Source of the DNA: Pohlia nutans
Taxonomy: Eukaryota > Streptophyta > Bryopsida > Bryales > Mniaceae
Assembly: GCA_022496805.1 (NCBI GenBank)
Contig: CM040104.1
Coordinates: forward strand, 7,167,650-7,231,649
Length of the DNA: 64,000 nt
Reading direction: 5' to 3'
In this document: in pieces, positions 37,344 through 64,000 of the stretch
Layout of the letters: each line of letters begins with the position of its first letter
Numbering within the stretch: the stretch's first letter is position 1
Notes under the pieces: generated by a model
Database searches by the model: none
The model's input: the letters and a program-made list of their open reading frames with translations, nothing else
Told to the model about the DNA's origin: nothing
Translations under genes and position numbers: made by a program

Positions 37344-37347
37344 ATAT

Positions 37348-41887: not shown

Positions 41888-42551
41888 GTACAAGGCAATA
41901 TTCATTAAAATGACACAAAATGGTCATTTTGAGACTCCCATCCCTCTATTGTGGGCTTATTTCCAAAGATAGTTGTTGAAGCCAAAGATAAATAAAGGCC
42001 GAATGAGATTGATTGATGAAATAAGAGAAGGTGTAGTTACTTTGAGCTTATTGCAATCAAGGATAAACAAATAAATTTAATGTTCATTAAATTGAGACAA
42101 ATTGCATATTTTGAGACTTTCACACATCAAACCACATCAAATCTAGTCATGGATGGGTAAGAGAAGTGGGCGTTCAAAAACAAGAACGAATAAAAACAAA
42201 GAGGGCGCCACAATTAAACACATTTGTGGAAATGAGAAGTCCGCACGTATTATTTAATATATGGCAACGTGGGAATGTACAAAACCGTGCTCATGTACAC
42301 AAGTATAACGTGTGCTCGAGTATACAAGTATGACTAGTAGTAGATCATGATACAGTTATAGACATGAGATATTCGAATATTCCCTTGGCAGTAAAGGTTT
42401 CCAAGAACAACAGAGGGTAGTACACAAGAACAACCATACGCTATGAGGATAACAAATGTTTAAGGGATTTTATAAAGAATGCTAATATCTATAGTAACAC
42501 AACAGTAAGTGACGCACTACTACTACTACGCGGAACACATGACCCACTTAT

Positions 42552-43448
42552 CTAGCCATTGTGGCCTGTACTATGACGACTCTTCGCAGCCTCCAACGCT
42601 TTCACCTTTAACAGGCCTCGAAGGATATCGTTGCGTCGAGAAAGCTTCGGGGATCCACTTCGGGAAGGCATTGCACCGGGAAGGTTCAGCAAGCGAGCCA
42701 AGTTTACATCAGAATGGCCCCTGAAAGGGCGCGGTGGAATCTCGGAAGTTGAGAGTGATCTGGTAGGCCGAGGAGCCTTCACTCGGTTCGTGGAGCGAAG
42801 GTTCGGGCACGCGACGCCCATGGATCTTGAGTCCTCGGGCCGACGATCATCACGCACAATTCGACGACCGGGGACCGGACCCGCTGAGCCGGAAGAGCCG
42901 CCCCTCCGAGGCGGAGCCGGGCTAAGCAAATTATCTTCGATCCGAGGAAACTGAGCAGGTTTCAAGGAACGCAAAGGGGCCGGGCGCTTGCGACCCCCGC
43001 CCGATGGGGCCGGATGCGCTTCTGCAGGTGCAGAAGAACGCACCGGCGAAGCACCGCCATCCTCGACGCGAGGAATCACAGCGTCATCGCCACAGTCTCC
43101 GTACAATTTCCTCTGCGGGGTGGACTTGGTACGCGGAGTTGGCGAATGAGAGCGATCTCGGACCGGCGTGGAGGTTGAACGCTTCAGCGGCGAAGGGGAG
43201 CAGACGGGGGTCTTAGCGGAACCTCGACTGGGAGGGCTATCGACGACGCCATCATCCACACTCCCCTTGGAGAAATCGATAGCGGCAGATGCAGCGTCCG
43301 TGGCCGAGCAGAGGACGTAGGGCTTTGAATACCCGGAGGGACCGCAGCTACCTCCAGCAGACTCCGAGGCGGGGGCGTCAGAACCCGACAGCAGACTCCT
43401 TGTCAGGGGCTGCGCGGCGGGCAGCGAGTACACCGGGAAAACGCCAAC
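42552..43448 (-). CDS. Ser/Pro/Arg-rich ORF of the transposon module, 298 codons plus stop
   Basis: Open from an acceptor-like TTGGTTCTCAG before 43448 to the stop at 42552, phase 0. The protein is disordered-looking: repeated SP and TP pairs (RSHSPTPRTKSTPQRK), basic clusters and two palindrome-encoded IPRVEDGG and FPRIEDN peptides. It may be the last exon of a longer gene; a small upstream exon (MLDSLLVMSAALDPC, near 43570) is possible. Function unknown; no enzymatic motif seen. Nothing breaks the frame. Confidence 0.5.
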   Translation of the reverse strand, partial: VGVFPVYSLPAAQPLTRSLLSGSDAPASESAGGSCGPSGYSKPYVLCSATDAASAAIDFSKGSVDDGVVDSPPSRGSAKTPVCSPSPLKRSTSTPVRDRSHSPTPRTKSTPQRKLYGDCGDDAVIPRVEDGGASPVRSSAPAEAHPAPSGGGRKRPAPLRSLKPAQFPRIEDNLLSPAPPRRGGSSGSAGPVPGRRIVRDDRRPEDSRSMGVACPNLRSTNRVKAPRPTRSLSTSEIPPRPFRGHSDVNLARLLNLPGAMPSRSGSPKLSRRNDILRGLLKVKALEAAKSRHSTGHNG

Positions 43449-43727
43449 CTGAGAACCAAACAGGATTAGAAACGAGGCATGAAACGAACCAATACAACGA
43501 CAGGTGGTCCCACACCCGATCCGCGATGCAAGGATCTAGAGCAGCGGACATGACCAGAAGAGAATCTAACATACAAGCCTAGCTCCCGAGAACACACGGA
43601 GCATTTACAAATTCCGATATACACATTTAATGATACAAAAAGTGGAAGTATAGAATTAATAATACAAAATGAAATTACAGTTCGACACTCAGACAACGTC
43701 ACTTTCAAAAACTACGGCGGCCCGGAA

Positions 43728-44628
43728 CTAACGAATCCCCGGAAAATCGTGAGAACAGCCGTAGGCGGCGCTGGACAGTGCGAGCCCACGAGCGATATGG
43801 GAATAGAGCGGATCGGACGGCTGCAGGGGACCACGCCCGATCCGATTTCGCTCGACATACTGTCGGAGATGGCCCGGAGCACAAGAAGAGTGCAGCTGAC
43901 GAAGCCACGGAGCGAGGGTCCCCATGAGGACGTCGTCACGACGCTGTGAACGAGACCAGGACTCTAGGAATATGGCGTTACCGGTCTCATTGCACACACT
44001 CTTCTTGGGGGAATCGTCTATGAGAAGGGTGTTGTCCTTGTGGAAGGAGGCAGCCCCACTGGAATTGGAGAACACCCGTTTGGCGAGGTCCTTGAAGAAG
44101 ATCTCCTTGGTGCCAGACAGATCCATAAGGTACCTCCCGCGAGAGATTTGAACCTTGGTGCAGAACTCCTGCCCCATGATCTCGAAGGGTTGATTGACGC
44201 CCTCGAAGAGGAAGCCTGCGATGAGCTCGACGGTGGACCTCCTCATCGAGCTCCAGACGACGACACGATCGGCGACCTCAGCGACCACGGCGAGGAAATC
44301 GGCCAGACGAGGACGATTGTAGACGTGCTTAGGTCCAAGCAAGGTGGGATTCGAAGAGGAGAAGGCGTGCCAGTCGACAGGGTTGACCCATGCATTCTTT
44401 GGGAGTTGGGACTTATCGACGCACTGGCAGAGAATGCCGTTCAAGTCAAGCACGAGATTCAACCACTTGCCCCGCGGCTGGGACTCTAAAGACGAAACAG
44501 TCCGTGGCAGAGCGACTTCGCTAGACGGCGACACGACCTGATCAAAGCAAACACAGAACAAGTGGAGTTACCTGATCGAACGCAGAAGCAGAAACAGGAG
44601 TGCCAGAGAGTGGGGTAAAGCATTTCAT
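43728..44628 (-). CDS. FCP1/NIF-type HAD phosphatase-like protein in the transposon
   Basis: Main exon 44477-43728 encodes LNLVLDLNGILCQC (HAD motif I), RPRLADFLAVVAEVADRVVV, VWSSMRR (motif II), a KEIFFKDL lysine region and LLIDDSPKKS (motif III), then PWLRQL as in FCP1-like proteins. Motif I reads DLNG instead of DxDxT: the nucleophilic Asp remains but the second Asp is Asn, so phosphatase activity is doubtful. A small first exon MKCFTPLSGTPVSASAFDQ (44628-44572) splices in phase via GTAACT to TCCCAG at 44478 (94-bp intron), giving 268 aa; a start at an internal codon is possible. No stops or frameshifts, unlike its module neighbour. A role acting on phosphorylated nuclear proteins would fit the family but is speculative. 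Confidence 0.7.
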
Positions 44629-45097
44629 CCCACTAAGTGACTGTAGGACACCTCCAACAAGTGATGGTTTCAGGGGCAGCGGACGGTGCACACTTCTAAG
44701 CAATTTCGGCTGGGACGAAAAGACATGGACAATGGAAAGACATTAGGCAAGGATTTGCAAAAATGTAGTGCCTTATATATTAAATTTACATAGTGAATAA
44801 TATACAATCATCCGGTCGTTTAAAATCTCGCCCAGGGGGCAGCTATGCACGCATCCAAAAACTACATCCGAAATCCGTGAATCTACACTATTCTACAGGA
44901 GGCTGTCACAGCGGGGTGGGTCGACAACGCCACACAATCACAGACGAGGCACCCCCTCCTGTCAACCAGAATGAATAGAAATAAGAGTCTACGTACAGGA
45001 AATGACAGATTGATGGAGGCAACAAAACACTTCCATCAAGCGACATCCTGGCGACTCATAAATATTCATAAGGGTCAGAATGGTCAGGAGAGTGTAC

Positions 45098-48000
45098 CTG
45101 AACTGCTTGATCAGGTGGTGCGCTGTCGACGATATCATCCGCGGGAACGTCCGGTGCCAATTCATGCTGCTCCTGAAGTGGCTCATCTTCGTAGTCCACC
45201 AGCTCTTTGTTCTCGGTCTCAAGGGGACAGTGTTCGTCTGCTGCGAAGACGGGAGGGGGAGTTGAGTGAACAACATCACAAAGAGCCTCGGTCTCAGGTG
45301 GAGGAGCGGGGCAGGCCTCCTCTGGGATTGGAGGAGGATGCCCAGAATTATCCTCGCCTCGAGGATGTTGCTGCTCGTCTTGCGGCTGAGCGTTGGGGCA
45401 GGAGGACTGGGGGGCTTCCGCCTGACCTTGGTCTTCAAGGTCCCGAGGGGGAGCGGTATCAGGAGAAGCAGGACGGGGCGCATCACATGCCATCGCAGCA
45501 GGAGCAACGGAGGAGTGAGACATATCCTCGGATCGAGGATCCTCAGGCGCATCGTAGCTGGGAAGGTGCAGGCCCGACCCCTCAGAAGTGGCCATGAGGG
45601 CCGCTGCCGCATTGGAAGGTTCAACAACTGGAGCAGATGAACCCGTTAGCATGGCCCTCAACTCCGCCATGTCCCTTAAGGATTTCTCTTGAGATTCTCT
45701 CAACCGCTGAATCTCAGCAAGTAGTGCGTCCTCCACCTCCTTCTTGTGCTTCCTCTTCTGCTCCTTCTCTTCCCAGAACATGACCTCGTTCGCACGGCAC
45801 TTGTTGAGGATATTATCTTTATCGCAGGAGGACGCATCCTCACCGTCACGTATCGCACGCAACTCCTTGAGTTTTAATGCGACACCCTCGTTTGTTTTGA
45901 GGGACGGAGGGGGGGTGATACTCGCGGGTTTTGTCGCGGGAGTAGATGCGGCTACTGTCGCGGGATTGTCTTCGGTGTCGCTGAGCTTGAGGATTTCAGC
46001 GGTAACAGGTATGGCAGTGACGCCCTTTCCCTTATCACGCACCCGTCGAGGAGGAAGAACGTCTGAACTGGACGGCGCGACTGGTTTCTGCGACTCATTA
46101 GGAGGGGACGGATTTGGAGAACCCTGGACGGGGCGGCTATCCTCGACTCGAGGATCCGGTGGCACAACTGATATCTGCATCTCCTCAAGAGGAGGAGGAG
46201 GTGAACCCTGGACGGGGCGGCTTTCCTCGACTCGAGGATCCAGTGGTGCAACTGATATCAGCATCTCCTCAGGAGGAGGACGAGGAGGAGGTGAACCCTG
46301 GACGGGACGGCTATCCTCGACTCGAGGATCCGGCGGCGCAGATTGGCCAAGTGCTGGAGTCTCCGGATCACGATAGTCCGAATCGTCAGAATCATCCGAC
46401 AAATCATCGCTCGACAAGCTTAACGAATCATCTGCTCCAATGTCTTGGGGTTCAGGAAGCTGAGACCCGTACTGGTCATAGTGCTCCTCTCCCTCCTCGC
46501 CACGATCCTCCGCACTACGGTCCTCCTCCTCACGCTCGTCCTCCTCCGAAAGGGGTTCCACATCCCTATGTGCCTCTCCAGAGGGAGTTGCCTCAGCGTC
46601 GTTCGTGCGCAGGATTACAGGATTAATGTAATTACCCATGTACGGGGAATTCCCGAAGAGGAAATCCTTCATGTTGAGGCTATCTGCCTTCTTCCCCAGC
46701 CTCTCGAGCTTCTTTATCCCCACATTGCTGGCGATCCCGTAGTAGTTCAACCCGTACATCTGCATCAGCAAGCGGACGTGCAAGATTCAGTAAGAGCAGC
46801 AGAGACCCCTAACTAGGTGAGCTTCGGCCAATTATCCTCGAGTCGAAGATAGAGGAGAAGTGAAAATCACCAAGGTTAGTGGGGAATACTACACATACAA
46901 AATGACAAGGACACACCAGAAGCCACAGAATGACAGCAGCAAATGAAGACAGTGACTATCTTCGATTCGAAGATAACAGTAGTCCACAAACTGCGCCGCA
47001 AATGGAATGGGAAGTATACCTTTGCAGCCAGCATGCATTTGGCACCCGTGTAGATGCCGAAAAAGTTCTCCCCCGGAGTTGCAAAGTTCTGGAGGACCTC
47101 CAAGTAGAACTCCATCCGCAGCTCGCTGGAGTAAAATCTCCACTTCGCCTCGTGGTTCTTCGAGGGATCATTGTAGTATGAGATGGGGCTGGCGGAGTAC
47201 TCTTTCTTGACAAGTCCAGGAATGTATTCCGGGACACCCCGCTTGAACATGAAGTGCAGCATGACGTCGGAGGCTGTTTGCCGATTGGAAACGTCATTGA
47301 GCCGTTCTGCCTTGCACGGCTTGCAGACGGACGACTCGTATTCGTAGTCAGGGAAGTACATCTTGATGAACGTAGACGCCGTTGCGTCATCAAGAGTAGA
47401 CGCCGTTATCCAGAGCCACACTTTGGGCTGTGTCATAGGCGGGTCCTTGAGCTCAAGGAGCTTCGTGAGGAAAGGGAAAAGCGGAGCCGGAGCGGTAGGG
47501 TTCTCGGATGCTTTGTGCTTCGGAGCCTCCCGGAGATCCGCAATCCCGAAGCTCATGCCGTTGCGAGGGTTCTACTTCCACTTCGAATTCATGATGAACG
47601 CCATGGACGGTCCGTCATGGGCCCGAAGCTGAATCCTGCCTGCATGCTCTTGGAAGCGGCACTTGTGCGACATGAACGACTTGAACATGTCATTGAGCTC
47701 TTGGAATTTCTCCGTCATGTCGCTCAGTCGCTTGTTCATGGCCTCGTTGGTCAGGCGCCTCTTAAAGAAGTCTCCCGACGGAGTGGAGAGGAGGAAGTCA
47801 AACGTCGCCGTGGAGAACCGGTAAGTCTTCTTCCAGGACTTCCAGCTCGCCTTGTCCACAGACCCGTCGGGTTTAAAGAAATTGAGGGTCTTGTTGATAT
47901 TCATCAACTCCTCAAGAATGATCTTCTTGCGCTTGCGGCGCTCCACCCAATCAGTCCCGCTGTAGTGACCCACGACGTATGATCTCGTCTTCATTACTCA

Positions 48001-50029
48001 TACCTTGGGGTATGGCAGCGTCCTGTTTGGGGTCCTCCCGAGGAGATGTTGCACGTAGGCCTTTAGGTCCTCATCCGTTAAATGGCCCATGCGCTTGAAG
48101 AATTCACGCTGCAGCGTGAACCTTTTCTTGACGCCCTTGGCTTCTCTGTAGGGCTGGAGCGTCTCGGGATTTATCAGGTCCCCGTTGGAGTATTTGGTCA
48201 GGAACTCCTCCCACATGGCGTAGTGGTCTTCTGGGAGCGTGATCACCTTGATCTCATACTTGAGGTCAGCGGCCCCCTTCACAATACTTCCTTCTTTGTC
48301 TGGGTTGATACTCTGGAACCGGCCAACGATCAAGGTGGTGAATGTCTGCAACCAAACGAATAACGAAACAGTTGTTAGAGACAGACAACTCCCGGGGGGA
48401 ACTGGCGTGATTATCTTCGAGGCGAAGATATTGACTGCAGTACCTATAGAAAAGGGAAGGACTTAGTATGACATTCCACATTTGCATTGCTATTAGCATA
48501 GCTAAGTGTCTAATCTACAGAAATGTACATGGTGTCGTTGAGATGAAGTTGTGGGTTGAGCGAGAGCCCGTATCTTCGAGTCGAGGATATATGCACAGAA
48601 AAGGGGGACTTACGTGGTACTTCGACTGAGATAACACCGCACCGTTATGTCTCGTTGCTGCCTCCGTAGCAATGTTGGTGGGCCTCCCGCAGTGGAGCCA
48701 GATGTTGCAACCGCTGATGATCTGGTTACCCCATGTTGGCTGCGCGTGGTTCAGGTGGTTTGTGGAGTTGTAGAACTTGGAGATGTTGTGCAGTTGGACA
48801 GTGTCCAAAGTCCACACAATATATGCGTTCCACGTCCTCAACTCATTCCGTCGAGTCTCCCCGCATCCCTCACGCTGAAATTCTTTTGATGCGGTGATGC
48901 TGTGTTGACCGTTTATAATCATAAAGCGGCCATTTTCGATATCCTCCCATTTCTTTGGTTTACTCTTCAGCAGTTTGAAGTTCTCGTCAACAGGAGTGAG
49001 GCAGATGGTTTGTTGCTGTCTGATGTCTGCAAGCTGAACGAGCTCCCTCTTGCAGTCCTCCACAATTTCCTTCTCTAGCTTTCTGATGACATACTCGTCA
49101 TTGGCAAGAAAGCATTGGTCGATGGAGACCTTGTACGATAATTCATCAAACACATAGCAGGCCTTGTGTTTGTCCCAGAAATCTTTTCTCATTTCATCGA
49201 ACTTCAGGTACTCAGGCACGGGGTCTGCACTCTGGTTGTGTCTCCCCTGCACCGTCGTCAATGCTGATCCTGAGCTCCCGGCGGTTGACGGTCTTGCGGC
49301 AGGCGTTGATTTTCTCCGCTTCCTACTTGATTCACCTGCTGCTGCGGTGCCGGGAGTCGACACTCGGGGGTTCGAACGGGCTCTCTTGCCGGCTCTTCCT
49401 CTACTGTTTGCTCGAGGTGTTCCCGACTGGGAACGGTTGGCGTCAGCTGCATCTGGCTAGCGGAGTCGCCTGGTTTGGATTGCTGAGGAGGCCGGGATGC
49501 AGTTCTGCAGTGCGTACCTGTCCAGTGCCTGAAAGACGTGGCCGAGCTTGCGAACTAGGGCCTCGACCGTTGCGCACTGCCATGGGAGGTAATTAGTCCT
49601 GAACGGGTCTGCGAACTCTGGCGTGGAGAAGTCTTGCAGAGAATCCATGAGCACATCCATGTCGAATTTTGCTCCCCGGTCGTGCACTTTGATGACCAGG
49701 GAATGGGTGTGTTGCTGAGCACGGCCCATATCGTCGACTGCCTGGAGGGCTATGACAATGTAGTCCTTGTGGTGCTGCTCGATGAACGTGACCTCGTTGT
49801 TGTTCCATACGAGGAAGTTCGGACTGTTGTGCTCACGGTGCCTGAGATACACATAATTCTCGAACCGGCTGAACCCAAATGTCCAGGCTGCAACGCACTC
49901 TTTGAACTGCCACAGGGATCCATAGTTGGACGGCATGTCGTAGATGAATGGGGTGTCTCCCAGTGGATTCTGGAATGGCTCCATGAATGGTGTTGTGGAC
50001 GAGTAGTCGTAGTTCTCTCACTCAGCCAT
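45098..50029 (-). pseudogene. Large three-exon module gene, about 1470 codons, four in-frame stops
   Basis: Exons 50029-48614 (472 codons), 48345-47020 (442) and 46759-45098 (554) have lengths divisible by three and clean GT-AG borders (GTAAGT/GTTGCAG; GTATAC/GATGCAG), so the gene model is strong. Stops: TGA at codon 4 (avoidable by starting at ATG 49984), TAG 49457 where the second copy has CAG, TGA 47998 and TAG 47572 where the second copy has tyrosine codons. Exon 1 has a basic Ser/Arg linker and GRFMIINGQHSITASKE (about residue 367), reminiscent of ParB/DGQHR-type folds. Exon 2 is globular. Exon 3 is acidic (SSDDLSDDSDDSD), carries three DPRVEDSRPVQGSP repeats encoded by palindromes, and has a charged coiled coil (WEEKEQKRKHKKEVEDALLA). 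Function unknown; DNA binding is a guess. Confidence 0.75.
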
Positions 50030-50149
50030 TTCAACAGACCTGCACAGGACATCGTAGCAGCTTGACTGTTAGAGAGTCTGCAATACTCAGGTATCTTCGA
50101 GTCGAGGATACATGGGATTATCACATGAATTCGACTTGCTATCTTCTAT

Positions 50150-50727
50150 TGCTTTGGTCCGTGTACATCTTCGATGGATTCATCGCTCTATGGGGCACTA
50201 TGGCTAATGAAGATTTGTCTGGAGAATTTAGGAGGATGAATGAGCCCCTCAAGTACTACTGGCGCGGGGTGAAATCTGCTCTAACCACGCCAGTTCCGGC
50301 GCGGGAGACTTTGCAGAATGGATTTTGGCCATCTTCGAGATTCGCACCCGAAATAGAGGACCAATTTCTGGACAATGGGACAATCCGTGAGGAGTTTGCT
50401 GAGGATGCTCCCTTCATTGGTCGTAGGCGTGACCGTCCAGCCCCTTCATTTCGCGTTAGTCGTGATGTGTACGCTGGCTATTTCCTCGCAGTGCGCCCTG
50501 CTGATGATGACCGCCGACCATTTTGGCTGGCTAAGGCCTTGACGAATCCCAGTCCAGATCCTGGACATGTGAATTTAATTCAGATGCAGTATTGGACACC
50601 TGCTTCACGGCAACACATTGATATGGACACTTATTGCGGTTGGGATACAAAAGAGGGGAATTCTTGGCGCGAGGATAGATGTTTCCAACCAAATTGGTCC
50701 CATACAGATTGTATCATGACAGCGTGA
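50150..50727 (+). pseudogene. C-terminal remnant of a DUF7869-like transposase gene
   Basis: Encodes GFIALWGTMANEDLSGEFRR ... FAEDAPFIGRRRDRP ... YAGYFLAVRPADDDRRPFWLA ... DPGHVNLIQMQYWTPAS ... GWDTKEGNSW, aligned throughout with the C-terminal domain of the minus-strand gene at 38009-38590 but better preserved (no frameshift). Similarity starts abruptly near 50170, so the catalytic part is missing. It reads toward the right terminus, about 720 bp away, just as the gene at 38009 reads toward the left terminus at 37348. It could be a short expressed protein, but no start is convincing. Confidence 0.7.
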
Positions 50728-51454
50728 AAGCCGCGTACAAGAAAAGAGACTTCCGATCCAAGGATTAAAATTCCTCAAACACAAATCAACATCATCAAAG
50801 CATCTATAGACTCCTATGTATCAGATTCCATGAATGAGGCATCACCGCCTCGTGAATGATTTGTATCTAGGCGTATGTTTAGTAGGGATTTGTAGTGATT
50901 CATGTAGTGTGTGGATCTAGATGTAAACGGGTTTGTAGTATTACAATGGCGATGTCGTTATTGTAGAACATTCTATTACATTTATTGAAATTTACCGAGG
51001 TGCCTATGCACAATGGATTTCGAATTTTGTATATTGGTATTGCTATTACATTGCATGTATGAATGGTAGGACCATTTTTTTCATTGATAGCTCAATTGAT
51101 TTAGGACCTCAATGGAAAGTGTCATTCCATTTGATTAAGTCTTTGTTGGTTGGGACAAGAATATTATAATTGCCTTAGTACAGCTTTGTACCAGCATTGA
51201 GGATGGTTGTGTAGCCTTAATCGTTGGGTCAGCAGTCCCAATGTTGAGCAGAGAAATGCAACATAGATGTCTGGACTTCAACAATATTAAATGACTACTC
51301 TTAATTGTATAGATGAATATGAGTGATCCAACGTAGTTAAGTCTCAATTTAATGAATTGCCTCAATATAATGAACGCTTATTATCTTCCACACTTGGGGT
51401 CATAATTAAAATGAGACTGCAAATTGTGTCATTTTAATGAATATTGCCTTGTAC

Positions 51455-52930
51455 CAAATTAACAAAAAGTTGGCTTGCAACCTGCAAGCTAATACTATAA
51501 ACTGATTACACTTGTGAGACGACAAATCCATTGGAACAACTTATCACAACATGTGGCACCAATCGTGCACAAGATTTTTTGATAACTTTAAAATATATTT
51601 GTATATTGATAAAAATTGTGTGAATTACAACAACTTGACTAAAGCAAACTATGACTATTGATTATACAATGTACAAGAGTGAGTAAGAAAATAGAATACA
51701 AGTGGTCTAATAGCTAGCATTGGGAATTGAAGAGTCGCTTAACTTCTACTAGAAGTTCAACTTATCTACTTATCCTACTTCATATCCTAGCCAATTAGAC
51801 TACTTGGTATCTAATTTGCAAATAGTCCTTTTGTATCAATTATCAACTAATTTATCATGGTCAAGTAGAAATACAGTCTATTAGTTACCCCTATTTACAC
51901 TAGAAAGAGCAAATAGACAAAAATAAATAATACACATGACTACAACCATCGACTCCGATGATTCACAGAGTTGTACCTGCAATCTCAAACATCAATTGAT
52001 ATACATGCGATGTTTGCAAGAATGGCACTAGCACCTATATAGAGAAAAACCCAAAGGATTCCAAATCTTATCAGGAATATCGATGAATTCAGTCGCTCCT
52101 TCCGAAAAACCCAGTGTTGTGTACAAGCAGGACCCAAAACCTTGGCGGAAAACAGAACAAGGTAGCACCGTGCGGGTCTGCAACGAGCAATGGAGAGACA
52201 AGAAGGAACTAGCAGCGCGACTGTGCACGAAGAAGAGAATGTCCACGTCGAGATGAAGTGAGACCAAGCATACCCTTCCGCGAAGATTGGGCGGCAAAAG
52301 AAATGGGGCGGGAATTCTCAATTTCAAATGTTTCGAAATCCACGCCGCCTTCCAACATTTAATGCTCGCATTTCCTGCCAAGGTTGGAGCGCCGATTTAT
52401 TTGTCACTTTTTGACAGATTCATGATCGAAAGATGCGGATGCAATAAAGCAGACCGAAAAGGCCTCGTCCGGGTATAGTTAGATTCGACAACTGTACTGC
52501 TTTTCGTCTCGGGAATTACGCTTGTGGCTGGATTCTGCATGGGATTCCGTTTATTTTATTCACTATTAAAAGCCTCGATTCCATAATTTCCTTATCCTTC
52601 TCAGCATCCATTCGTTAGAGTCTAGGGCAGAGGGCATCGAGTTAGGTTTTAGGGGTCAGAATTGAAGAGAGGAAACGGATACTTATTACTATTTCGGAGA
52701 TTTGTCTAGAGTCCATTACTGTTTTTTAGGGTTTAGGGTTTAGGGTTTAGGATTTATGATTGAACATAGAGGTAGGGTATATCATCGCGGTAGTGATATT
52801 AAAAATGCGTTTACGCTTGAGATATATTTATAAATCACTATCTAATATAGCACACATGCATTATATCGACATATTTGGAAAGCCGATATTCACATAGGCC
52901 ATTGATGAACCTCTTCACTTTTATTTCTGA
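51455..52930. other. Intergenic DNA with a TTTAGGG tract
   Basis: A GC-richer island at 52060-52680 holds a minus frame of 117 codons without protein-like support. At 52725-52755 there are three to four TTTAGGG units, the plant telomere-type repeat, here a short interstitial tract or promoter telo-box cluster. Confidence 0.5.
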
Positions 52931-52934
52931 AATT

Positions 52935-53491
52935 TTAACTCCTAAAAGCCCAAGGGGTATTGGACAAAACATAGGTGATTGTGTTATAATATGTGCCTTC
53001 TATATGTCTAATGAAGTTTGGTTCAATAGACAAAATGTAGAGCAAGTCTCTACATATTATCCGTACAATCAAACTTCTAAATGTAACTTTAGATAGTTTC
53101 TTCAAGAGTTTAGAAGAATTAACCTTTGAAAATTTGTATAAATTCTAATTTTCACTTTTAGAGTTTAGAATTTAGCATAAATTGTTACATTTGGTTTGTC
53201 TACTGTAAACCTCAAAAAGGCAAAATAAATGATGGAAGGATGATCAGTACTTTCCCCAAAGATCAATTTGTGTAACACTAAAACAATGTTGAAGTAACAT
53301 TTTGAAAAATTCTCCCGAGTAGAGCTTAACTCTTAATGATTGACATAATTTAAATTCGGTTGGAAAGTAGATTTGTTTTAATATTTTAAAATAATTTCAC
53401 TTACAAATTTTTTTTCAAAAAAGAATTCCTGGTACCTCGTTAGATTTGGACAGCGACCAAAATTGGTTATTATGGCGTTTTTAGGTTTTAA
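52935..53491. mobile_element. TTAA-type non-autonomous element, copy H
   Basis: TTAA at both ends; left CTCCTAAAAGCCCAAGGGG, right GGCGTTTTTAGG. Shares GGTATTGGACAAAACATAG and TTTGGTTCAATAGACAAAAT with copies D and F. 557 bp. Confidence 0.75.
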
Positions 53492-53869
53492 TAAAACTCT
53501 ATTTAAATTTGAAGTCATGCATCCTTATAAATTTCATTTTTGAGTGGGCATTATACAGTTAAAAAAGCATATCTTCCAATGAATCCAATGATCCAATATT
53601 CCAATCTTATCAAGGGTTTAACCGGCACTTATTTCTGTAGACTATATTTACATTCATACCGAAAGTTACTAATACTGGTTTTCGGAATTTCAATAGAAAC
53701 AGTTGTTAGGATAAACTATACGATTTATTTAGAAATATACTTTTCAATTTTTTTTGTATAATCATCTTTTTCAAATTTTAATAGAGTTTTGGGTATTTCC
53801 ACCGTAAGGTATTTCTACTTTTAGTAACTTTACTCTTAAGGTATTTCCAACGTAAAATACTAAAAAATT

Positions 53870-54532
53870 TCTTATTGAAGTTCACAATAGATAGCCGAAC
53901 TATACATAATGAAACTAAATTCTGAAGTCTAAAATTAAAATTATAAATTATACAAATTTTTAACGGTTATCGCTTTTAACTTTATATCAAATTCATCCAT
54001 AGTTGTTTTAGGAAGTATAACCGTGCAAATAATTTGTAAATATGTTACTCTGGGTACATTCACAGTAACACGACCCAACCCCGCCCTGTTATAACGACTC
54101 TTGATGAGTGCTTAGAAAATAATATCTTCAATTTTTGTAGATATTAGAAAAATTTAAGGACATTTTGCGACATATTTTGAACATTTTAGCACATTTTAGT
54201 CGTTATTAACGACTGGTTACGACCATATTTTAGTCGTTTTGGAGTACCAATAACTTCCCAAACATTGTCAAACTTTAGTATATTGTATAATGACATATAT
54301 TATATGTAGTTACTAATTTATATTGCATTATAAATTCATATGATAAGATTATTGCTTAACAATCCGTTAAATTAATCACTGGTTACAGTTTCCTTGGGTT
54401 GTGTTACTGTGAATGTACCCCTCTACATTTTGTCTATCGGAAAAAACTTCATCAAACATATTGAAGGCACATATTATACAACACATCTATAATTTATCCA
54501 ATACCCCTCAGGGTTTTACTGAGGGTTATTAA
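53870..54532. mobile_element. Reverse-oriented relic of the TTAA-type element, interrupted by a 369-bp MITE
   Basis: The complement of 54421-54532 matches the left part of copies D, F and H (GGGGTATTGGATAAATTAT, ATAATATGTGCCTTCAATAT), ending at TTAA 54529-54532; the complement of 53870-54047 matches their interior. The 369-bp MITE lies between. Confidence 0.6.
54052..54420. mobile_element. 369-bp MITE, copy 1, target duplication CTCT
   Basis: About 27-bp terminal inverted repeats GGGTACATTCACAGTAACAC + GACCCAA. Flanked by CTCT at 54048-54051 and 54421-54424. Inserted into the relic at 53870-54532. Internal TAACGACTGGTTACGAC and an otherwise AT-rich body; no coding. Confidence 0.85.
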
Positions 54533-55247
54533 GGTGATAGTACATTACAAAAATATAAAGTGGAAAGTACTTCTTCTAGTTTTTGAATTGTTTATGGCCT
54601 AAGTACGCAGTCACTTTTGATTCATGAAAGGTTTGCGTAGGGCATGGAGTGTATAGAAGTTGTATTAAAATAATATATTAATAACTTTAATATGCTTATA
54701 ACTTTGAAAATTTGTTTTAATATGTCACAAAACATTATTAATGTGTTGAATTGGTAATTTCTGATATCTTTTCTATTTTTTCGAAATGGTGACCACTCAA
54801 GTGTTATCACTATTTAAAATATATTTATTTGGTTGATAATTATTAAAATAACATAAAAGAATTCCGTCTTAAATTTGGTTATCTTACTATCTATAATAAA
54901 ATATGATAGGCATTGAATCGTTTGCTAGAAAAGGATTTGAGGCCAAAACTCAATCTATTGATTTCTATGAATGGATGTTCCGTCGCACCAGGTTTCATTC
55001 ATTATTTTGCAATCAAGTGTCTCAATCCATGCATGTTTCTTAATAAAGAATGTGTAACATTAATGTAATTTACAATTAGATATTGACAACTTCTAATATT
55101 TTAGGCTAGTAACTCATGCAATACAATCAAGACGGTGAATTATAGAATGATGATTATTTCATTTGTCAATCATTCAATTCGCAGGAAATCAATGAAAAAT
55201 GCTTATTAAAATTAATGCAGAAGTTGTAAATATTTTGAATAAGACTA

Positions 55248-55616
55248 GGGTACATTCACAGTAACACGACCCAACCCCGCCCAGTTATAATGACTCTTGA
55301 TGAGTGCTTAGAAAATAATATCTTCAATTTTTGTAGATATTAGAAAAATTTAAGGACATTTTGCAACATATTTTGAACATTTTAGCACATTTTAGTCGTT
55401 ATTAACGACTGGTTACGACCATATTTTAGTCGTTTTGGAGTACCAATAACTTCCCAAACATTGTCAAACTTTAGTATATTGTATAATGACATATATTATA
55501 TGTAGTTACTAATTTATATTGCATTATCAATTCATATGATAAGATTATTGCTTCACAATTCGTTAAATTAATCACTGGTTACAGTTTCCTTGGGTCGTGT
55601 TACTGTGAATGTACTC
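55248..55616. mobile_element. 369-bp MITE, copy 2, target duplication ACTA
   Basis: Same length and almost the same sequence as 54052-54420. Flanked by ACTA at 55244-55247 and 55617-55620; the right terminus has one change (GTACTC for GTACCC). The two differing 4-bp duplications show independent insertions. Confidence 0.87.
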
Positions 55617-55620
55617 ACTA

Positions 55621-56870
55621 AATACATGCAATTGTGCCTGCAAGTTCAGGAATATTTCAAGTGGTTTGGATATTTTTACGTAAGAAAATCATTAACAAAA
55701 TTCACCGATCCGTTGCTATACTTAAAAGAACTCAACTCATAAATGTCATAGAATTTGCATCCAAAAGCATGAAAAAAATAAGTGAACAACTTGTAAATAC
55801 ATTTTTGATGTCAAATCCATTTTTGCATGCAAGTGGTTTGGGTATTTTTACGTAAAAATATTTATATCAATTATTGAAAGTTCACTGGTACATTGCCTCA
55901 TAAAATTATTGCCATGGAAAATTAGAGATTCAAAATGAATCTCATTTAAATAATAGTTGTACAACTAAAATATATTAAGTTAATTCGACATGTGTGTCTT
56001 ATACCATGGGAAGTTGATACTATTAGCAAGTCATAGTGGTAAGGAGTGAATCCGTAAAGACTGGCCATCTTTAAGGAAATTGTTCTTTAATCACTTTACT
56101 TTTGATTGGTATTACAGATTCTTGCAGGGGTATAATAGAAGCAATGTCGTTGTAGTGACTTAAGTGATGAAATACTTAAGAATAAAGAAATATCTTATAT
56201 AAGGAATGCCTTAACGGAGCACGTGAAAGTATAAAGCTTAAAGTGAAAAGACTTCTATGAGATAAGTATTCTTACATATCTTCAAGTAGAAATGAATCGT
56301 GAGTTAGTATCAAGCAGTAAAGATTGATCTGTCTATTTGACTTACTTTGGCAACTATAAAAGGGTATTGCCCTTTGTCATGACTATTTGACCTTAGGATA
56401 GGACAAGACAGACGCATATTTAATTGACTGGAATTAGTTATAGGCAAGTGACGCCACCACATTCTAACATTAACCAAGTCTTATTAACATTGGGTGATTG
56501 AGTTGAATAATCTTTAAACTTATAAGTGACTTTAGTGAATTATCCATAAACGCTTTCATCTTTCCCCTTATAGAACTCTACCAGGAAAGTTAACTTAGTA
56601 TGAAAAGCCTTGTTGAACTTTTCGATACTATAATTTCCAACCCGGACGAAAACCGGATCTAGTCGCAACCGGGTCAGTCAGTAGAAGAAGACCCGGTTCA
56701 GCAGGAAAGAGGAATTTAGCTGGTGATAGTAAGAGAGGGATCATCAGCCCGGGACCATCTCCGGAAACCTCCCACTTCACAGAATCTCCGCGGAACGATA
56801 ACCCGGAAATCACCTCTATGAGCGTTCTTAATACGAAAAAGTGCGTTCTAGGGGAGTATCCGGTATCACG
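55621..56870. other. AT-rich intergenic DNA ending in an ACCCGG-rich stretch
   Basis: No gene. 56637-56830 has repeated AACCCGG, ACCCGGTT and ACCGGAT words that abut the truncated module copy. Confidence 0.5.
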
Positions 56871-59255
56871 TGCTACGACAGTAGTATGAGATGGGGCTGG
56901 CGGAGTACCCTTTCTTGACAAGTCCTGGAATGTAGTCTGGGACACCTCGCTTGAACATGAAGTGCAGCTTGACGTCGGAGGCTCTCTGCCGATTTGACAC
57001 GTCATTGAGCCGTTCTGCCTTGCACGGCTTGTAGACAGACAACTCGTATTCGTAGTCGGGGAAGTACATCTCGATGAACGTAGACGCTCTTGCGTCATCA
57101 AGAGTAGACTCCGTTATCCAGAGCCACACTTTGGGCTGTGTCATAGGCGGGTCCTTGAGCTCAAGGAGCTTCGTGAGGAAAGGGAAGAGCAGAGCCAGAG
57201 AGTTAGGGTCCTCGGATGGTTTGTGCTTCGGAGCCTTCCGGAGATCCGCAATCCCGAAGCTCATGCCGTTGCGAGGGTCGTACTTCCACTTTGAATTCAT
57301 AATGAACGCCATCGACGGTCCGTCATGGCCCTAAAGATGAATCCTGCCTGCAGGGTCTTGCAAGCGGCACTTGTGCGACATGAACGACTTGAACATGTCA
57401 TTGAGCTCTTGGAATTTCTCCGTCATGTCGCTCAGCCGCTTGTTCATGGCCTCGTTGGTCAGGCGCCTTTTAAAGAAGTCTCCCGACAGAGTGGAGAGGA
57501 GGAAGTCGAACGTCGCTGTGGATAACCGGTAAGTCTTCTTCCAGGCTTTCCAGCTCGCCTTGTCGACAGATCCGTCGGGTTTAAAGAAATTGAGGGTCTT
57601 GTTGATATTCATCAACTCCTCAAGAATGACCTTCTTGCGCTTGCGGCGCTCCACCCAGTCAGTCATGCTATAGTAACCCACGACGTATGATTTCGTCTTT
57701 CCCACATATACCTTGGGGTATAGCTGCATCCTGTTTGGGGTCCTCCCGAGCAGATGTTGCACGTAGGTCTTTAGGTCCTCATTCGTTAAATGGCCTATGC
57801 GCTTGAAGAATTCCTGCTGCAGCGTGAACCTTTTCTTGACGCCCTTGGCTTCTCTGTAGGGCTGAGCGTCTCGGGATTGATCAGGTCCCCGTTTGAGTAT
57901 TTGGTCAGGAATTCCTCCCACATTGCGTAGTGGTCGTCTGGGAGCGTGATCACCTTGATCTCATACTTGAGGTCAGCGGCCCCTTTCACATTAATATTTC
58001 CTTCTTTGTCTGGGTTGATATTCTGGAACCGGCCGATGATGAAGGTGGTGAAAGTCTGCAACCAAACAAATAACGAATCAGTTGTTAGAGACAGACAATT
58101 GCCGGGGGAACTGGCGTTGATTATCTTCGAGTCGAAGATATTGACTGCAGTACCTATAGAAAAGGGAAGGACTTAGTATGACATTCCGCATTTGCATTGC
58201 TATTAGCATTCCTAAGTGTCTAATCTACATATATCTAGATGGGGTCGGAGAGATAAAGTCGCAGGTTGAGCGAGAGACTGTATCTTTGAGTCGAGGATAA
58301 ATGTACAAAAATGGGTACTTACCGTGTACTTCGTCTGGGATACCTTCGCACCGTTTTGTCTCGTTGCTGCCTCCGTAGTGGAGTTGGTGGGCCTCCCGTA
58401 GTGGAACCAGATGTTGCGACCGCTGATGATCTGGTTATCCCATGTGGGCTGCGCGTGGTTCAGGTGGTTTGTGGAGTTGTAGAACTTGGAGATGTTGAAG
58501 AGTTGGACAATGTTCAAAGTCCACACAATATATGCATCCCACGTCCTCAACTCATTCCGTTGAGCCTCCCTGCATCCCTCACGCTGCAGTTCCTTAGAAG
58601 CGGTGATGCTTTGTTGACCGTTTATAATCATGAAGTGGCCATTTTTGATTTTTGTCATTCGCGTCAACAGGAGTGAGGCAGACGGTTTGTCGCTGTCTGA
58701 TGTCTGCAAGTTGAACGAGCTCCTTCTTGCGGTTCTCCACAATTTCCTTTTCTAGCTTTCTAATGACGTACTCGTCATTGGCAAGAAAGCATTGGTCGAT
58801 GGAAACCTTGTACGTTAATTCATCAAACACGTAGCACGCTTTGTGTTTGTCCCAGAAATCTTTTCTCATTTCATCGAACTTTTGGTACTCAGGCATGGGG
58901 TGTGCACTCTGGTTCTATCTCCCCTGCACCGTCGTCAATGCTGATCCTGAGCTACCGGCGGTTGACGGTCTTGCGGCAGGCGTTGATTTTCTCTGCTTCC
59001 TACTTGGTTCACCTGATGTTGTGGTGCCGGGAGTCGACACTCGGGGGTTCGAACGGGATCTCTTGCCGGCGCTTCCTCTACTATCTGCTCGAAGTGTTCC
59101 CGTTTGGGAACAGGTGGCGTCAGCTGCATCTAACTGGCGGAGACGCCTGGTTTGCATTGCTGAGGAAGCCAAGATGCAGTTCTGCAGTGCGTACTTGTCC
59201 AGTGCCTAAAAGACGTGGCCGAGCTTACGAACCAGGGCCTCGACTGTTGTGCACT
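56871..59255 (-). pseudogene. Partial second copy of the large module gene
   Basis: Collinear with 47171-49585 of the 9.56-kb transposon on the same strand, including both exons and the intervening intron with two palindromes (58122 TATCTTCGAGTCGAAGATA and a degenerate one at 58281). Similarity ends abruptly at GTAGTATGAG on the left and GCCATGGGA on the right. Defects include TAG codons near 58917 and 59207, a frameshift near 57872 and loss of about 15 codons after CLTPVD. It retains tyrosine codons where the first copy has TGA (47998) and TAG (47572), which shows those are defects in the first copy. Confidence 0.8.
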
Positions 59256-61360
59256 GCCATGGGAATGGCCATATTCGCTAAAATGGGACTATTCCGGAGA
59301 TTTGGGACCTTTTCAACCCCTCGAAGTTGCCATATCTAGTACTTTGAATTCTGATAACTTGGAGAATTTTTTACTACGATGCCGCTAATTATAGTTGCAC
59401 TTGAACTTCCGTGAAGAATCTTGGATCCCTAAATTGTCCCCCGAGATAACAGCTACGCATTTCATTTACTTTCGGATTTCTTGTTTGCGCAGAATCCAAC
59501 AATCCTCCTAAGTATGTTCGAACAGCTAGATGATGTTTTTGGTCGCTCTCTTTCATCGTGCACCTTCATTGAATGATTTATACTCTATTTGTACTATGTT
59601 TAGTAACACTCGTCCCAGACGCACGACAATCTTTGATTGCAATATGTAACGACGTTCATGGTCACCTACGTTGTGGTGTAGGGTACACGTGATTATGACT
59701 TTACATAGTGTATAATAATAACCTACAGAGTGGTTTAGGGTACACTATACACAGATAATGTCTACTTTTGGTTGCATATCTGCTCCAAATTAAATCCACC
59801 ATTTTTTGCGAAATTTTAGTATTGATTATTGTATTCCATTCCCATTTTCACTTCATATACAATCATTGTATATACTACCTTCCGTTCTCATTTGTCTCTG
59901 CCTTATATTGGCTGGTCACAAATCATTCAAAACTATTCTGTTTTAAAATCCAACATATAAAGGTGATTTGAGTACAACACCTCTTAAGTTAAGTGCCGGG
60001 TTTGATTTAGAATATATTCCCCCAAGATTCCTTGAAACCGAGGGTGGCTCGTACGTTTTTCACATGCTCACCCCCTTCCCACAGCCACACCAAGTATTAA
60101 TAATTCTCAACACCATAACACCGTGCAAACTCGGGGAAGTCACTCTTTGTATCCTTTGAGTATCACGTGTGAACAAAGGGTATTTAAAAGTACCCTAAAA
60201 ATTAAAAATTATTTCTTACTATAGTTAGTAATATTTCAAAAATATGCTCATAGTTATATTCTTGTAATTAAGAAATATTTGGAAGTGACCTCCCCGAGCG
60301 TGCAAAAACAAAATAAAACATACATCCTCTTCATGTGTACATGATAATCCAACTACCATGGCATGAAGTAATGATTAATAGGTTAAGATTACATTTTAGC
60401 GCGTGACAATGTTCACGGCAAACGGACCATGACATATAATTTAGGAAATGAATCATACATTTTGTTAAGGGTTTGAGTTGTTTGGGTAACAATTACTCTT
60501 CACCCAATCTCCTACGCGTACACAAATTTTGTGCTTCTACGGGCTGGTGTTTCTGTGGTAAACAATCACCAAGAACTGAAGAGTATGTCTTGTGTTTCTA
60601 GAATGTGCGTCTGCCAATTGCTATTTTCAATTTTTTCCCTACATTCTTGAGTTCACTTCAATCTCCTACTCGACTTTGCATGCACAATCCATTTGTCATC
60701 TCATGAGACATGTCGAGTGAACTCATGATGATGACTCGCTGTCAGATACACACCTATTCAACTTCCGCCGTCTATGCAATTTGCCATCAGCAGAAATTTG
60801 AAGAACACGCTGCAAATTGCATAAAATTTGATCCATGTCAAGTTCCTACATTACATTACAGTTTAGGAATAGATTGAACATGGTAAGATGTAAATGATGA
60901 AACTCTGCCACAATACGCTTACCTCGCAAAGACGGTATTCATCCACACATGGTCTATTCTCCTGAAAATTTCCAAACCGGGTATGTTATCAAAACTTGGT
61001 ATTGCCACACATTTACAATTAATGTTTATGTTCACCGAGTCTTCTAGCGGTCGTCTAATAATTTGTAAAAAATCGGTTTTCACATGGGCGCTTCCTTCCA
61101 CCTGTGCTGATGAAAAAAAATAAAAAATTCTAGTGCCACGCTAGATTATGGTGGAAGGCGCCTAGTAAATACTTATATATCTACGACTGAAGTCTTCGTG
61201 GTGCCCGAATCTTCAACTTGATGCGCGCTACAAAGAAACTCAATTTTCCTGTACAGACCGGGCACCATTTCATTCAAAACTGACGCTCACATCCACTAAT
61301 CACAAACAGCTTCAATGCAATAATACGACAGAAAACTAACCTTGTTTGTCCTCGCTGCTT
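59256..61360. other. Intergenic DNA; transposon-like end at its left edge
   Basis: Starts GGCCATATTCGCTAAAATGG, resembling the AAGGC-type termini elsewhere in the window, directly at the breakpoint of the module copy. Otherwise AT-rich with no convincing gene. Confidence 0.4.
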
Positions 61361-63589
61361 CTATGGCTGCATGCTGCTCAATAACATCACATTCCTGCGA
61401 TTACCAGTAAGCGTGGTCAGCATCTCACGACTTTCTTGAATATACCATAGAGCATCCAGCAGATCTTTTGAATCAAGGACGGAAATCTTTACCTGTGTGG
61501 CTGGGATAATGTTGTCTACGGGACCTTCAGATACCTCCGCCTCATGGTCCGAGACTTCTCTTGCTAATGCAATCGATGTGGTTTGATGGGTAATATGTGT
61601 GGAAGGGGAGTCTGTGAACTCATTCACACTAACTACCTGACTCATCCAAATTGCCTCCTCCAACTTCAATTCCCTCTGCCTTGCTTCCTCGCGGACCCTC
61701 TCCAACTCCATTCTCAATACCTTGTTCTGTGTTGCCAGCTCCCTGCTCGCCCATAGTGCCTCTCGATTCACGGCCAACTTCTTCTTCGAGATCTTCTGCA
61801 GTTGTAATCTCAACGCTCTTTGTGTAGAGACCTTCTGCTCTCCACCGTCTGCTGGCACGACGACGTTGGGACCATCTGACAAGTCGGACTCCCCTTCGGA
61901 TGGGAAATCTAACAAGGATTCCCTATACGCATCATCATCTGATCCGCTGTCAATCTCAATGGGATTGTCCTTATTAGACGGCAGGGAGACCGTCACCTCC
62001 TCCTTCACAGTCCTCAGAGCTGGAATGGGTGGGACTTCAGGTGGAGGCACAGCAGATATCTCAGAAGTTGGACCCAGAACCGCAGCAAGCACAAGTCCCT
62101 CATCGTGGACAGCGTCGTTCTCGATGGTTACCAATGGGCAACTGACCACTGGCACTGGAGAGGGAGTGAAACCCAACAAATCTTCTGACTCAGCGGCCGT
62201 TGAAGAATTCGAGATTTCCATAGGGGCCACGCGTGCATCGTCCTCACCTTCCGATACCATTGAGCAATGGAGCGAATCAACGGCAACTGGGAGTTTGTCG
62301 GTATTGACAGTGCGCTCGTCGGTAGAAGGAAAACTCTCCTTGGGAACGGAAGCTTCCTCAGTGGTTGCCAGTGGGCAATTGACCACTGGCACCAGAGAGG
62401 GAGTGAACCCCAACATGTCTTCTGCCTCAAATGAAGGTGTTTCATTAATCTGCGCTGGGGCCATGCATGCCTCGTGCCCTCCAACTCGATGCAATACCAC
62501 GAACTGTGGGTTTGAGTTCACCTCTGCCCTATCGCCCGCTGCTCCGGAATGACTTCCCAGTTCGTCCTCAATGTCTACCGGAGGCGCACTCTCATCATGA
62601 CGGATTTCCAAATCATTGTATAGTTCATGGGCAGGGATACTGCCTTCACTGACCACGTTGCTGTCGACTCCAGTGGCCGCATGCACTGGCGACTTTTCTT
62701 GCTCAACAGTGACCAGTGGGCAATTCACTACTGGCAGTTGTGCATCACATGTGATCTCTTCACGCGCAGTTGGCGATAGTATGCGCACTCTGGAAGGAGA
62801 GGGTTCGGGTGTTAAGAGACCAGCACATTCCCCAAGAAGAGCCATTCCTTCGTTCAAATTCCTGGATTCAACAACCGGGCTCAAGGGTTGAGGCGATTCA
62901 TGATTGCCTTCTGCTTGCCAAGGAGGGCTGCACGGAGTCAGAGGTACTGGAGTACAGTGCTCTACAGTCTGCGCTGGTGCATCCGTTGGAGGCAAAAAGT
63001 GATGCTCATTCTCTACGTCCATGTCATTGCCTGAAGCTGAGGCTTCCAGATCTGTTGCCGTGGTCTCGGGAGCGTCGTCCTCGTCCTCACCGCTCGCTGC
63101 ATCTGAGCCGCTGACGTTATCAAAACCCTCTTCATCATCTCCCTGCAACGCACTTCCCGAAGGCTCATGTGCGTCGCTATCTTGGGATAGTAGAAACTGC
63201 CTGGGCTTGGGTTTTAGGGTAGAAGGAGGCCACTCCCCCTCGCTCCCTGCCCCTTCATCACTATGGTCACTGTCACGGACCTCGCCTGATTCTTCGCCGC
63301 TCGCGCCAGAGTCCACATTCAATGCGTCAGTGTGTGTCTTACCCCGGTCTGCAAAACTCTTGGACCATGATTCCCGGCGCCGGACACCCGAAGTTTCTGG
63401 TTCTTCATTTGGCGGAGTATGCTTCAATGGATACCACGTGCCGTCTTTCTGTGGCTCATCTAATGTGTCTATGGACGTCTCGTAGACGTGCTCGAACTTC
63501 TGAAGTTCGCAGCCGAGTTGGTGGCTGTTGACCATGATTTGGAAGTTATCCTCCGCTGTACCCACAGCAACGGGTTGGAGATCAAACAT
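61361..63589 (-). CDS. Diverged third copy of the module gene: exon 3 equivalent
   Basis: Begins after the acceptor TTGTGCAG (exon from 63589, MFDLQPVAVGT; first copy MYGLNYYGIAS). A donor CACACAG/GTAAAG at 61493 corresponds to the first copy's exon end (NIIPATQ versus PPDQAVQ); the frame itself runs on to 61361. The 699-codon exon is intact: acidic, disordered N-terminal part (SDHSDEGAGSEGEW), three PVVNCPLVT or PVVSCPLVT peptides encoded by a palindrome, DNPIEIDSGSDDD (a SUMO-interaction-like acidic motif) and a coiled coil (LQLQKISKKKLAVNREALW). Sequence similarity to the first copy is low, but intron positions, phase and order agree. Function unknown. Confidence 0.7.
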   Translation of the reverse strand: MFDLQPVAVGTAEDNFQIMVNSHQLGCELQKFEHVYETSIDTLDEPQKDGTWYPLKHTPPNEEPETSGVRRRESWSKSFADRGKTHTDALNVDSGASGEESGEVRDSDHSDEGAGSEGEWPPSTLKPKPRQFLLSQDSDAHEPSGSALQGDDEEGFDNVSGSDAASGEDEDDAPETTATDLEASASGNDMDVENEHHFLPPTDAPAQTVEHCTPVPLTPCSPPWQAEGNHESPQPLSPVVESRNLNEGMALLGECAGLLTPEPSPSRVRILSPTAREEITCDAQLPVVNCPLVTVEQEKSPVHAATGVDSNVVSEGSIPAHELYNDLEIRHDESAPPVDIEDELGSHSGAAGDRAEVNSNPQFVVLHRVGGHEACMAPAQINETPSFEAEDMLGFTPSLVPVVNCPLATTEEASVPKESFPSTDERTVNTDKLPVAVDSLHCSMVSEGEDDARVAPMEISNSSTAAESEDLLGFTPSPVPVVSCPLVTIENDAVHDEGLVLAAVLGPTSEISAVPPPEVPPIPALRTVKEEVTVSLPSNKDNPIEIDSGSDDDAYRESLLDFPSEGESDLSDGPNVVVPADGGEQKVSTQRALRLQLQKISKKKLAVNREALWASRELATQNKVLRMELERVREEARQRELKLEEAIWMSQVVSVNEFTDSPSTHITHQTTSIALAREVSDHEAEVSEGPVDNIIPATQVKISVLDSKDLLDALWYIQESREMLTTLTGNRRNVMLLSSMQP

Positions 63590-63685
63590 CTGCACAACGA
63601 CTGATTAGGGTAGCAATTGTCAACAATGGTGAGATGTAGTGTCAGATAACAGTAGACGATGCCAGTGGTCAATTGACTACTGGCA
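62129..63685. repeat. Four copies of a 26-bp palindrome unique to the third module copy
   Basis: Half-site TGCCAGTGGTCAA followed by its complement TTGACCACTGGCA. Copies at 62129-62154, 62365-62391 and 62711-62736 (in the exon, read as PVVNCPLVT-like peptides) and 63660-63685 (in the intron). Unrelated in sequence to the palindrome of the other copy. Confidence 0.88.
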
Positions 63686-63702
63686 CAAGCAAACGAGCGT
63701 AC

Positions 63703-64000
63703 CATGGCCGCGATCATGCACTTCAGCCCGGCAGCCACGCATAGCACAATTCGTGGGTTTTTGCTCTTGTGGTCAATGTGTGGAAGTTGCATAATGAATT
63801 GCATGTACACCTCCATCCTAAGTTCGTCTTCATGCATGTCGACCTCCCTTACAGATCCCATCCGCTTTGTCGACTCCGAAGAACGATTTTTTTTTTCTTC
63901 CAATTTATTGCGTTTGCCATCTCGGGATTCCAGAAGTACAAGATGCTAACACCTTTGCCTTTTTTCAAGATCCGGGGGGAGAAGAAATACGTCTCTGCTG
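63703..64000 (-). CDS. Third module copy: end of exon 2 equivalent, running off the window
   Basis: Encodes DELRMEVYMQFIMQLPH ... GLKCMIAAM before the donor GTACGC, matching SELRMEFYLEVLQNF ... GAKCMLAAK of the first copy at the same splice position. Upstream coding continues to the window end (WNPEMANAINWKKK region), with a run of A that may hide a frame change. Confidence 0.65.

Follow-up and report, generated by a model that had tools for sequence, protein, structure and literature searches.

We find that a short palindrome dispersed through a moss transposon is a conserved and lineage-specific tag, a property of element lineages and not of single copies. The 64-kb stretch of DNA analysed here (the window) contains one long element (copy 1), a related element to its left, a fragment of the same gene module (copy 2) and a diverged module (copy 3). 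The palindromes in it are genuine and occur far above chance: TATCYTCGANTCGARGATA matches the window at 19 places when up to 3 mismatches are allowed, where 0.02 would be expected. Using the generalised motif TATC-x-Y-CG-NNN-CG-R-x'-GATA, with 20 shuffles as control, we observe 23 window sites with no more than 2 mismatches (shuffles: mean 0.05, maximum 1); with 3 allowed the count is 27 (mean 0.65, maximum 2). Copy 1 holds 12 of the 27, the number given in a preliminary description of this DNA; a further 10 form an array at 40977-41493, 2 lie in copy 2, and 3 are weak single sites with 3 mismatches each (40855, 50659 and 52780).

Copy 1 (41888-51454) is a 9,567-bp transposon whose 31-bp inverted ends (41888-41918 and 51424-51454) are perfect; it has a possible 2-bp TA target duplication, which is inseparable from the element ends. 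Its large gene lies on the minus strand and has phase 0 introns. Exon A (48614-49984) encodes an N-terminal domain and a predicted ParB/sulfiredoxin-fold domain, and contains one in-frame stop. It is followed by intron 1 (48346-48613), by exon B (47020-48345), which encodes a helical half and then a predicted beta-class DNA-methyltransferase fold without DPPY and FxGxG and contains two in-frame stops, by intron 2 (46760-47019), and by the acidic, low-complexity exon C (45056-46759). Because exons A and B have three in-frame stops, copy 1 is probably not active. The minus strand also carries an ORF with a NIF/FCP1-like domain (43728-44567; Pfam NIF, E 5e-12) that is collinear with the C-terminus of Ceratodon proteins, and a basic low-complexity ORF (42552-43535) that, from its position, may belong to the same gene. 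On the plus strand, a putative transposase gene has left a remnant of its C-terminal part (50200-50727), homologous to 37941-38346.

The palindromes of copy 1 are found in exons and introns alike, as had been claimed. Seven of the 12 fall in low-complexity sequence of coding ORFs, two in the basic ORF (42932 and 43058) and five in exon C (45349, 45523, 46138, 46222 and 46312). Outside the ORFs are five sites: four in the introns (48412-48430 and 48571-48589 in intron 1, 46833-46851 and 46957-46975 in intron 2), and one at 50092-50110, in the gap from which the large gene (minus strand) and the transposase remnant (plus strand) run in opposite directions. The share of the two short introns, 4 of 12 sites, has a binomial P of 0.003, and the absence of sites from exons A and B, which encode both predicted folds, has a P of 0.019 (0 of 12). 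Position x is a mixture of C and T in this copy. The number of independent palindrome origins in copy 1 is lower than the number of sites, since three exonic sites (46138, 46222 and 46312) are units of an 84-nt tandem repeat.

The related element left of copy 1 (37345-41497) has a left end homologous to the right end of copy 1: its terminus at 37345-37457 is 77% identical to copy 1 51453-51339, and the end of the putative transposase gene is shared with copy 1 50804-50398 (69.5% over 407 columns). We looked for its right end and found none. An ORF on its minus strand (39064-40740) matches Pfam DUF7869 (E 2.7e-11), and we infer that this is the transposase. Upstream of the ORF, outside the terminal repeats of copy 1, is the array of 10 G-type palindromes (TATCGTCGACCCGACGATA; 40977-41493), nine of them at 58-bp spacing and all with G at position x; no ParB-fold gene is seen beside it in this element. 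Copy 2 (56881-59265, minus strand) is a partial module with the same palindromes as copy 1 in intron 1, at 58122 and 58281. Copy 3 (61361-63945, minus strand) is cut by the window end and comprises the end of exon B, intron 2 and exon C. Its homology to the other modules is weak by sequence, and the link rests also on the matching position of its intron (63590-63702, read from the sequence), which fits splice junctions. At up to 3 mismatches its 26-bp palindrome occurs at 62366-62391 and 63660-63685 (0 expected), and eroded copies lie within 62116-62154 and 62698-62736. Four such palindromes had been reported in this copy; two stand at up to 3 mismatches and two are eroded, and the three exonic ones resemble internal duplicates (families D10 and D11), leaving about two independent sites. 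The second intron is indeed tagged in both modules, as reported, at 46833 and 46957 in copy 1 and at 63660 in copy 3, and the splice junctions fit in both.

Relatives of the large protein are found in the mosses Ceratodon purpureus and Physcomitrium patens (protein P0136) as well, which makes a moss the probable host; one Ceratodon match represents 139 sequences, so that in at least one moss this is a large family. Structures modelled on two relatives predict a ParB/sulfiredoxin fold for the exon A domain (P0001) and a beta-class DNA-methyltransferase fold for exon B (P0133). Folds of these two kinds occur in proteins that bind or modify DNA. Pfam detected neither ParB nor methyltransferase, and the helical half of exon B, a possible place for a DNA-reading domain, had no match to anything. 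The catalytic DPPY is absent from all 37 rows printed of the 38 in the alignment, and the last position of the SAM-binding FxGxG motif is a lysine in all 33 covering rows of 34 printed. The CTP-binding motifs of ParB are GERR and ENxxR; at the first motif of the predicted fold GERR is absent and INGQHS is nearly invariant, and near the second we find FYNxxNH, not ENxxR. The NIF domain scores 46.2 bits in Pfam, with a cut-off of 21.8. Catalysis in NIF/FCP1 phosphatases depends on the motif DxDx(T/V), which the DLNGI of the NIF-like domain in the window, P0005, P0007 and P0008 does not match; P0006 and P0009 lack the DLNGI stretch.

The palindrome recurs in the introns of relatives. A profile search with exon A returned 229 relatives, of which the 120 listed, together with five Ceratodon proteins, make up a set of 125. 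Many of these are raw ORF predictions that read from exon A into intron 1. Palindromes of relatives were read via translations only, the proteins being scanned for the three-frame translations of the word; a scan of viral and genome contig sets found no DNA of the relatives. An exon A end could be located in 83 of the 125 proteins, and 64 of these have a tail of at least 10 residues; the Ceratodon proteins, being spliced, were left out. In this sample (the best 120 of 229 relatives, Ceratodon excluded) 30 of 64 intron-1 tails contain the palindrome, against a range of 0-1 over 20 shuffles; 26 of the 30 sites start 6-11 codons (18-33 nt) past the splice donor. The word is missing from the other 34 tails. 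In many of them an early stop limits the length, but several with at least 30 residues lack the word too, among them P0004, P0045, P0046, P0053 and P0058. The word is absent from 25,677 residues of exon bodies in the exon A set. Two matches occur in the remaining 42 exon A relatives, one probably by chance (P0104) and one in an intron tail (P0107), and none in the five Ceratodon proteins scanned, the further Ceratodon proteins P0126-P0132 having been left out of the word scan.

Exon B gives the same picture for further intron stretches. Among 51 aligned proteins, 30 have heads or tails of at least 8 residues, and 15 of these contain the palindrome (0 in 20 shuffles); three near misses (P0134, P0148 and P0168) are uncounted, and the word is absent from 16,877 exon B residues. 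The claim that the sites go with the gene module is supported, and in diverged relatives their place in the intron is conserved. The word of the copy 3 26-mer occurs in none of 185 relatives. When copy 1 is compared with P0001 or P0011, 5 of 6 palindrome residues are kept, and 8 of 24 and 4 of 24 flanking residues; overall, P0001 is 76% identical to copy 1 and 84% to P0011. The intron palindromes have the word in common and not the flanks, and the word stays in close relatives while the intron diverges. A test of the general palindrome compatibility of peptides was dropped in favour of this specific-word scan because codon degeneracy leaves it little power: 60 of 69 tails allow an arm of at least 8 (mean arm 10.2), as do 72% of 828 exon-body pieces (mean 9.1) and 78% of 552 shuffles (mean 9.6).

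Different versions of the word mark different lineages. Twelve of the 30 intron-1 tails with a site are C-type (TATCCTCG), 10 are G-type (TATCGTCG), 5 fit G or T, and 1 has both G and C; of two further tails, one fits TATCCCCG and the other TATCACCG. When the labels of 32 rows, 17 of them C or C/T and 15 G, are placed on a tree, they can be explained by two C/G changes, compared with 6-14 (mean 11) in 200 label shuffles. Five SSxRR tails labelled G (P0016, P0018, P0032, P0043 and P0083) fit G-type and T-type alike, and without them the 27 remaining rows still need 2 changes; P0059, P0073, P0076 and P0079 were labelled C by hand from peptides and are not strict word matches. Since site and gene adjoin, the agreement of version and tree reflects shared history and is no proof of binding co-evolution. 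Within copies, P0142 has two C-type sites and P0143 two sites that fit G, each pair in one intron, and P0016 and P0149, probably one contig by their common source and length, both fit G. Mixtures occur in P0003, with G and C versions within one intron, and in P0001/P0134, probably one contig on the same grounds, with a C-type site in intron 1 and a G-type core in intron 2.

The preliminary description had proposed a private tag for each lineage or copy, and had argued that drift would not replace one perfect palindrome by another at many sites. The private tag survives at the level of lineages, as the two changes on 32 rows indicate, and is not supported at the level of copies, where copies 1 and 2 share a version. 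Most versions are also not unrelated words: all versions except that of copy 3 belong to one TATC...GATA frame with one or two positions changed per half-site, and the 26-mer of copy 3, the sole really different word, rests on about two independent sites. The mixing described above is of related versions, and not of unrelated palindromes, the pattern that the description had set against its own proposal.

The best explanation of these palindromes, to which we give a slightly less than even chance, is that they are candidate sites bound by the element's own ParB/methylase-like large protein, as the modelled folds suggest. A predicted ParB/sulfiredoxin fold, then a predicted methyltransferase fold lacking its catalytic motifs, in a gene that continues into an acidic stretch and a NIF/FCP1-like domain of altered active-site motif, is what one would expect of a ParB-methylase fusion taken over as a scaffold for reading DNA. 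The protein would bind the dyad as a dimer, perhaps in the manner of ParB on parS, using sites that lie upstream of genes, within introns and in those low-complexity exons that tolerate them; it would sit along the element and might spread as ParB does. Binding would mark the element as self, and the bound protein could control transcription of the element (the transposase and its own gene) or prevent silencing. CpG is part of the TCGA cores, and binding could therefore be methylation-dependent. Protein and site may diverge together between lineages, by analogy with VANC proteins and their motifs. Reading the palindromes as a self-tag is plausible and is strengthened by the independent relatives.

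The strongest rival is that the palindromes are transposase binding sites, like internal or subterminal repeats, and serve transposition or transposase autoregulation. We consider it unlikely; it ranks above the others because the densest array, with 10 sites, lies directly upstream of the transposase-like DUF7869 ORF. That array, in an element where the ParB-fold gene is unseen, also speaks against binding by the element's large protein. Copy 1 retains a transposase remnant with one site just upstream of it, but its sites are spread internally over 7 kb and not placed at the ends, and relatives repeatedly show them at the same intron place of the ParB-fold gene. Host transcription or chromatin regulators, exploited by the elements, are another candidate, since dyads in promoters and introns could be read by host factors just as well. 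We hold this to be less likely again, as the versions differ among related lineages, several of them likely in one host kind, and track the lineages of the element.

RNA hairpins (8-bp stem, 3-nt loop) acting in splicing or processing are improbable. They would fit sites near the 5' splice site of introns and a stem that varies by compensating changes, but neither the array upstream of the ORF nor the site between the two gene starts is necessarily transcribed, and the C/T mixture leaves the sense RNA at 48571 with a C-A mismatch. Rfam, which covers RNA only, contains no family matching the window and reveals no other known RNA signal there, which counts against both the host-factor and the hairpin explanations. 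Least probable is that the palindromes have no function and arose through tandem duplication and hitchhiking. In its favour, the 84-nt repeat accounts for three exonic sites of copy 1, duplicates seem to make up the exonic sites of copy 3, and the array is a 58-bp tandem; against it, sites in introns have the palindrome but not the flanks in common, relatives retain the word where the surrounding intron has diverged, and the intron scans of relatives point to constraint on the palindrome arms. Binding by the element's own protein has observations against it as well, namely the 34 of 64 tails and five Ceratodon proteins without the word, the mixed versions, and the blank Pfam result for ParB and methyltransferase.

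The nearest system in logic is VANDAL/VANC, which combines a VANC-type protein with a Mutator-type transposase. Pfam found NIF and DUF7869 among ten window ORFs, and no VANC-type protein or Mutator-type transposase family. In both systems a plant DNA transposon carries a short word many times in introns or other non-coding parts, and the version differs between related elements. The VANDAL word is read by the element's own protein, whereas reading and anti-silencing are what we would propose for the moss element. In Arabidopsis VANDAL elements, VANC21 binds YAGTATTAY and VANC6 targets carry other motifs (PMC5735166), motifs and proteins diverge together (PMC5735166, PMC10398659), and the motifs are short, directional and located in non-coding tandem repeats, with anti-silencing demonstrated (PMC5735166, PMC10398659). 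Unlike these motifs, the moss word is a 19-bp palindrome, not directional, and is found also in coding exons; unlike VANC, the moss protein has predicted ParB, methyltransferase and NIF-like domains. The earlier statement that no described plant transposon has this arrangement therefore needs qualifying: VANDAL/VANC (PMC5735166) is comparable in the logic of its word, and the moss element differs from it in proteins, palindromy and exonic sites. In titles and abstract openings of the literature on bryophyte ParB, DUF7869, ParB-methyltransferases, Ceratodon elements and plant transposon palindromes, this system is undescribed.

The likeness to bacterial ParB-parS lies in the predicted ParB/sulfiredoxin fold and in palindromic sites near the gene and spread over the element; the differences are GQHS for GERR at the nucleotide-binding motif, the eukaryotic transposon setting, and one site version per lineage. 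ParB-DNA methylase fusions occur in bacteria and phages (PMC5512222), and we found a phage fusion protein of this kind in BFVD. The moss proteins resemble these in the order of a ParB fold followed by a DNA-methyltransferase fold, but they are without catalytic motifs and have an added NIF/FCP1-like domain, and the likeness is one of predicted fold. More tentatively still than the binding itself, we suggest that this moss DNA-transposon superfamily may be a eukaryotic counterpart of ParB-parS that captured a ParB-DNA methylase fusion of phage or bacterial type, lost catalysis and took to self-recognition, its palindromes being rewritten at many sites upon a shift in specificity. If so, each transposon lineage would be labelled with a molecular address peculiar to it, placed in promoters, introns and coding exons, and plants would have a second, independently built transposon self-recognition after VANC, made from bacterial-type parts. 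Natural pairs of protein and palindrome that are one base apart per half-site would make the joint change of specificity and a dozen dispersed sites testable. In Spm/En-type elements, TnpA, which the element itself encodes, binds a short word repeated many times in subterminal positions. The moss transposon likewise repeats a short word many times, but where the Spm/En sites cluster at the ends, the moss sites occupy promoter-like, intron and exon positions.

The Ceratodon proteins related to the large gene product of copy 1, the transposon with dispersed palindromes, form a large family (among them P0006, P0007, P0008 and P0126-P0132), with a single cluster holding 139 sequences. Several members carry UG or VG in their names, which suggests that they are located on the U and V sex chromosomes.

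Termini of the copy 1 type are also observed elsewhere in the window. A miniature element at 24741-24998 has termini, GGCCATATTTGTTATAATGAGAC, that belong to the end family of copy 1, and it was probably moved by the same putative transposase. Additionally, a terminal-repeat-like stretch of this end family lies at 59267-59289, precisely at the breakpoint of copy 2, the partial module. We observed a pair of short elements with inverted ends GGGTACATTCACAGTAACACGACCCAA (54051-54420 and 55248-55617) that are near-identical, with 99% identity over the 300 bases compared; the first of these is enclosed by a larger inverted-repeat element at 52943-54518.

Another short element, at 34056-34388, looks like a CACTA-type miniature element, having 27-bp perfect inverted ends that start CACTATAACAAAACATGG and consisting almost entirely of inverted repeats. 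Tandem arrays with unit sizes of 10 and 21 bp are found at 700-1024 and 10166-10482, the left containing TTGGAGC-related units and the right their complement, and the GC skew flips sign between them. These arrays are perhaps the subterminal repeats of a further large transposon. The plant telomere-type repeat TTTAGGG is present in 4.6 copies at 52725-52756.
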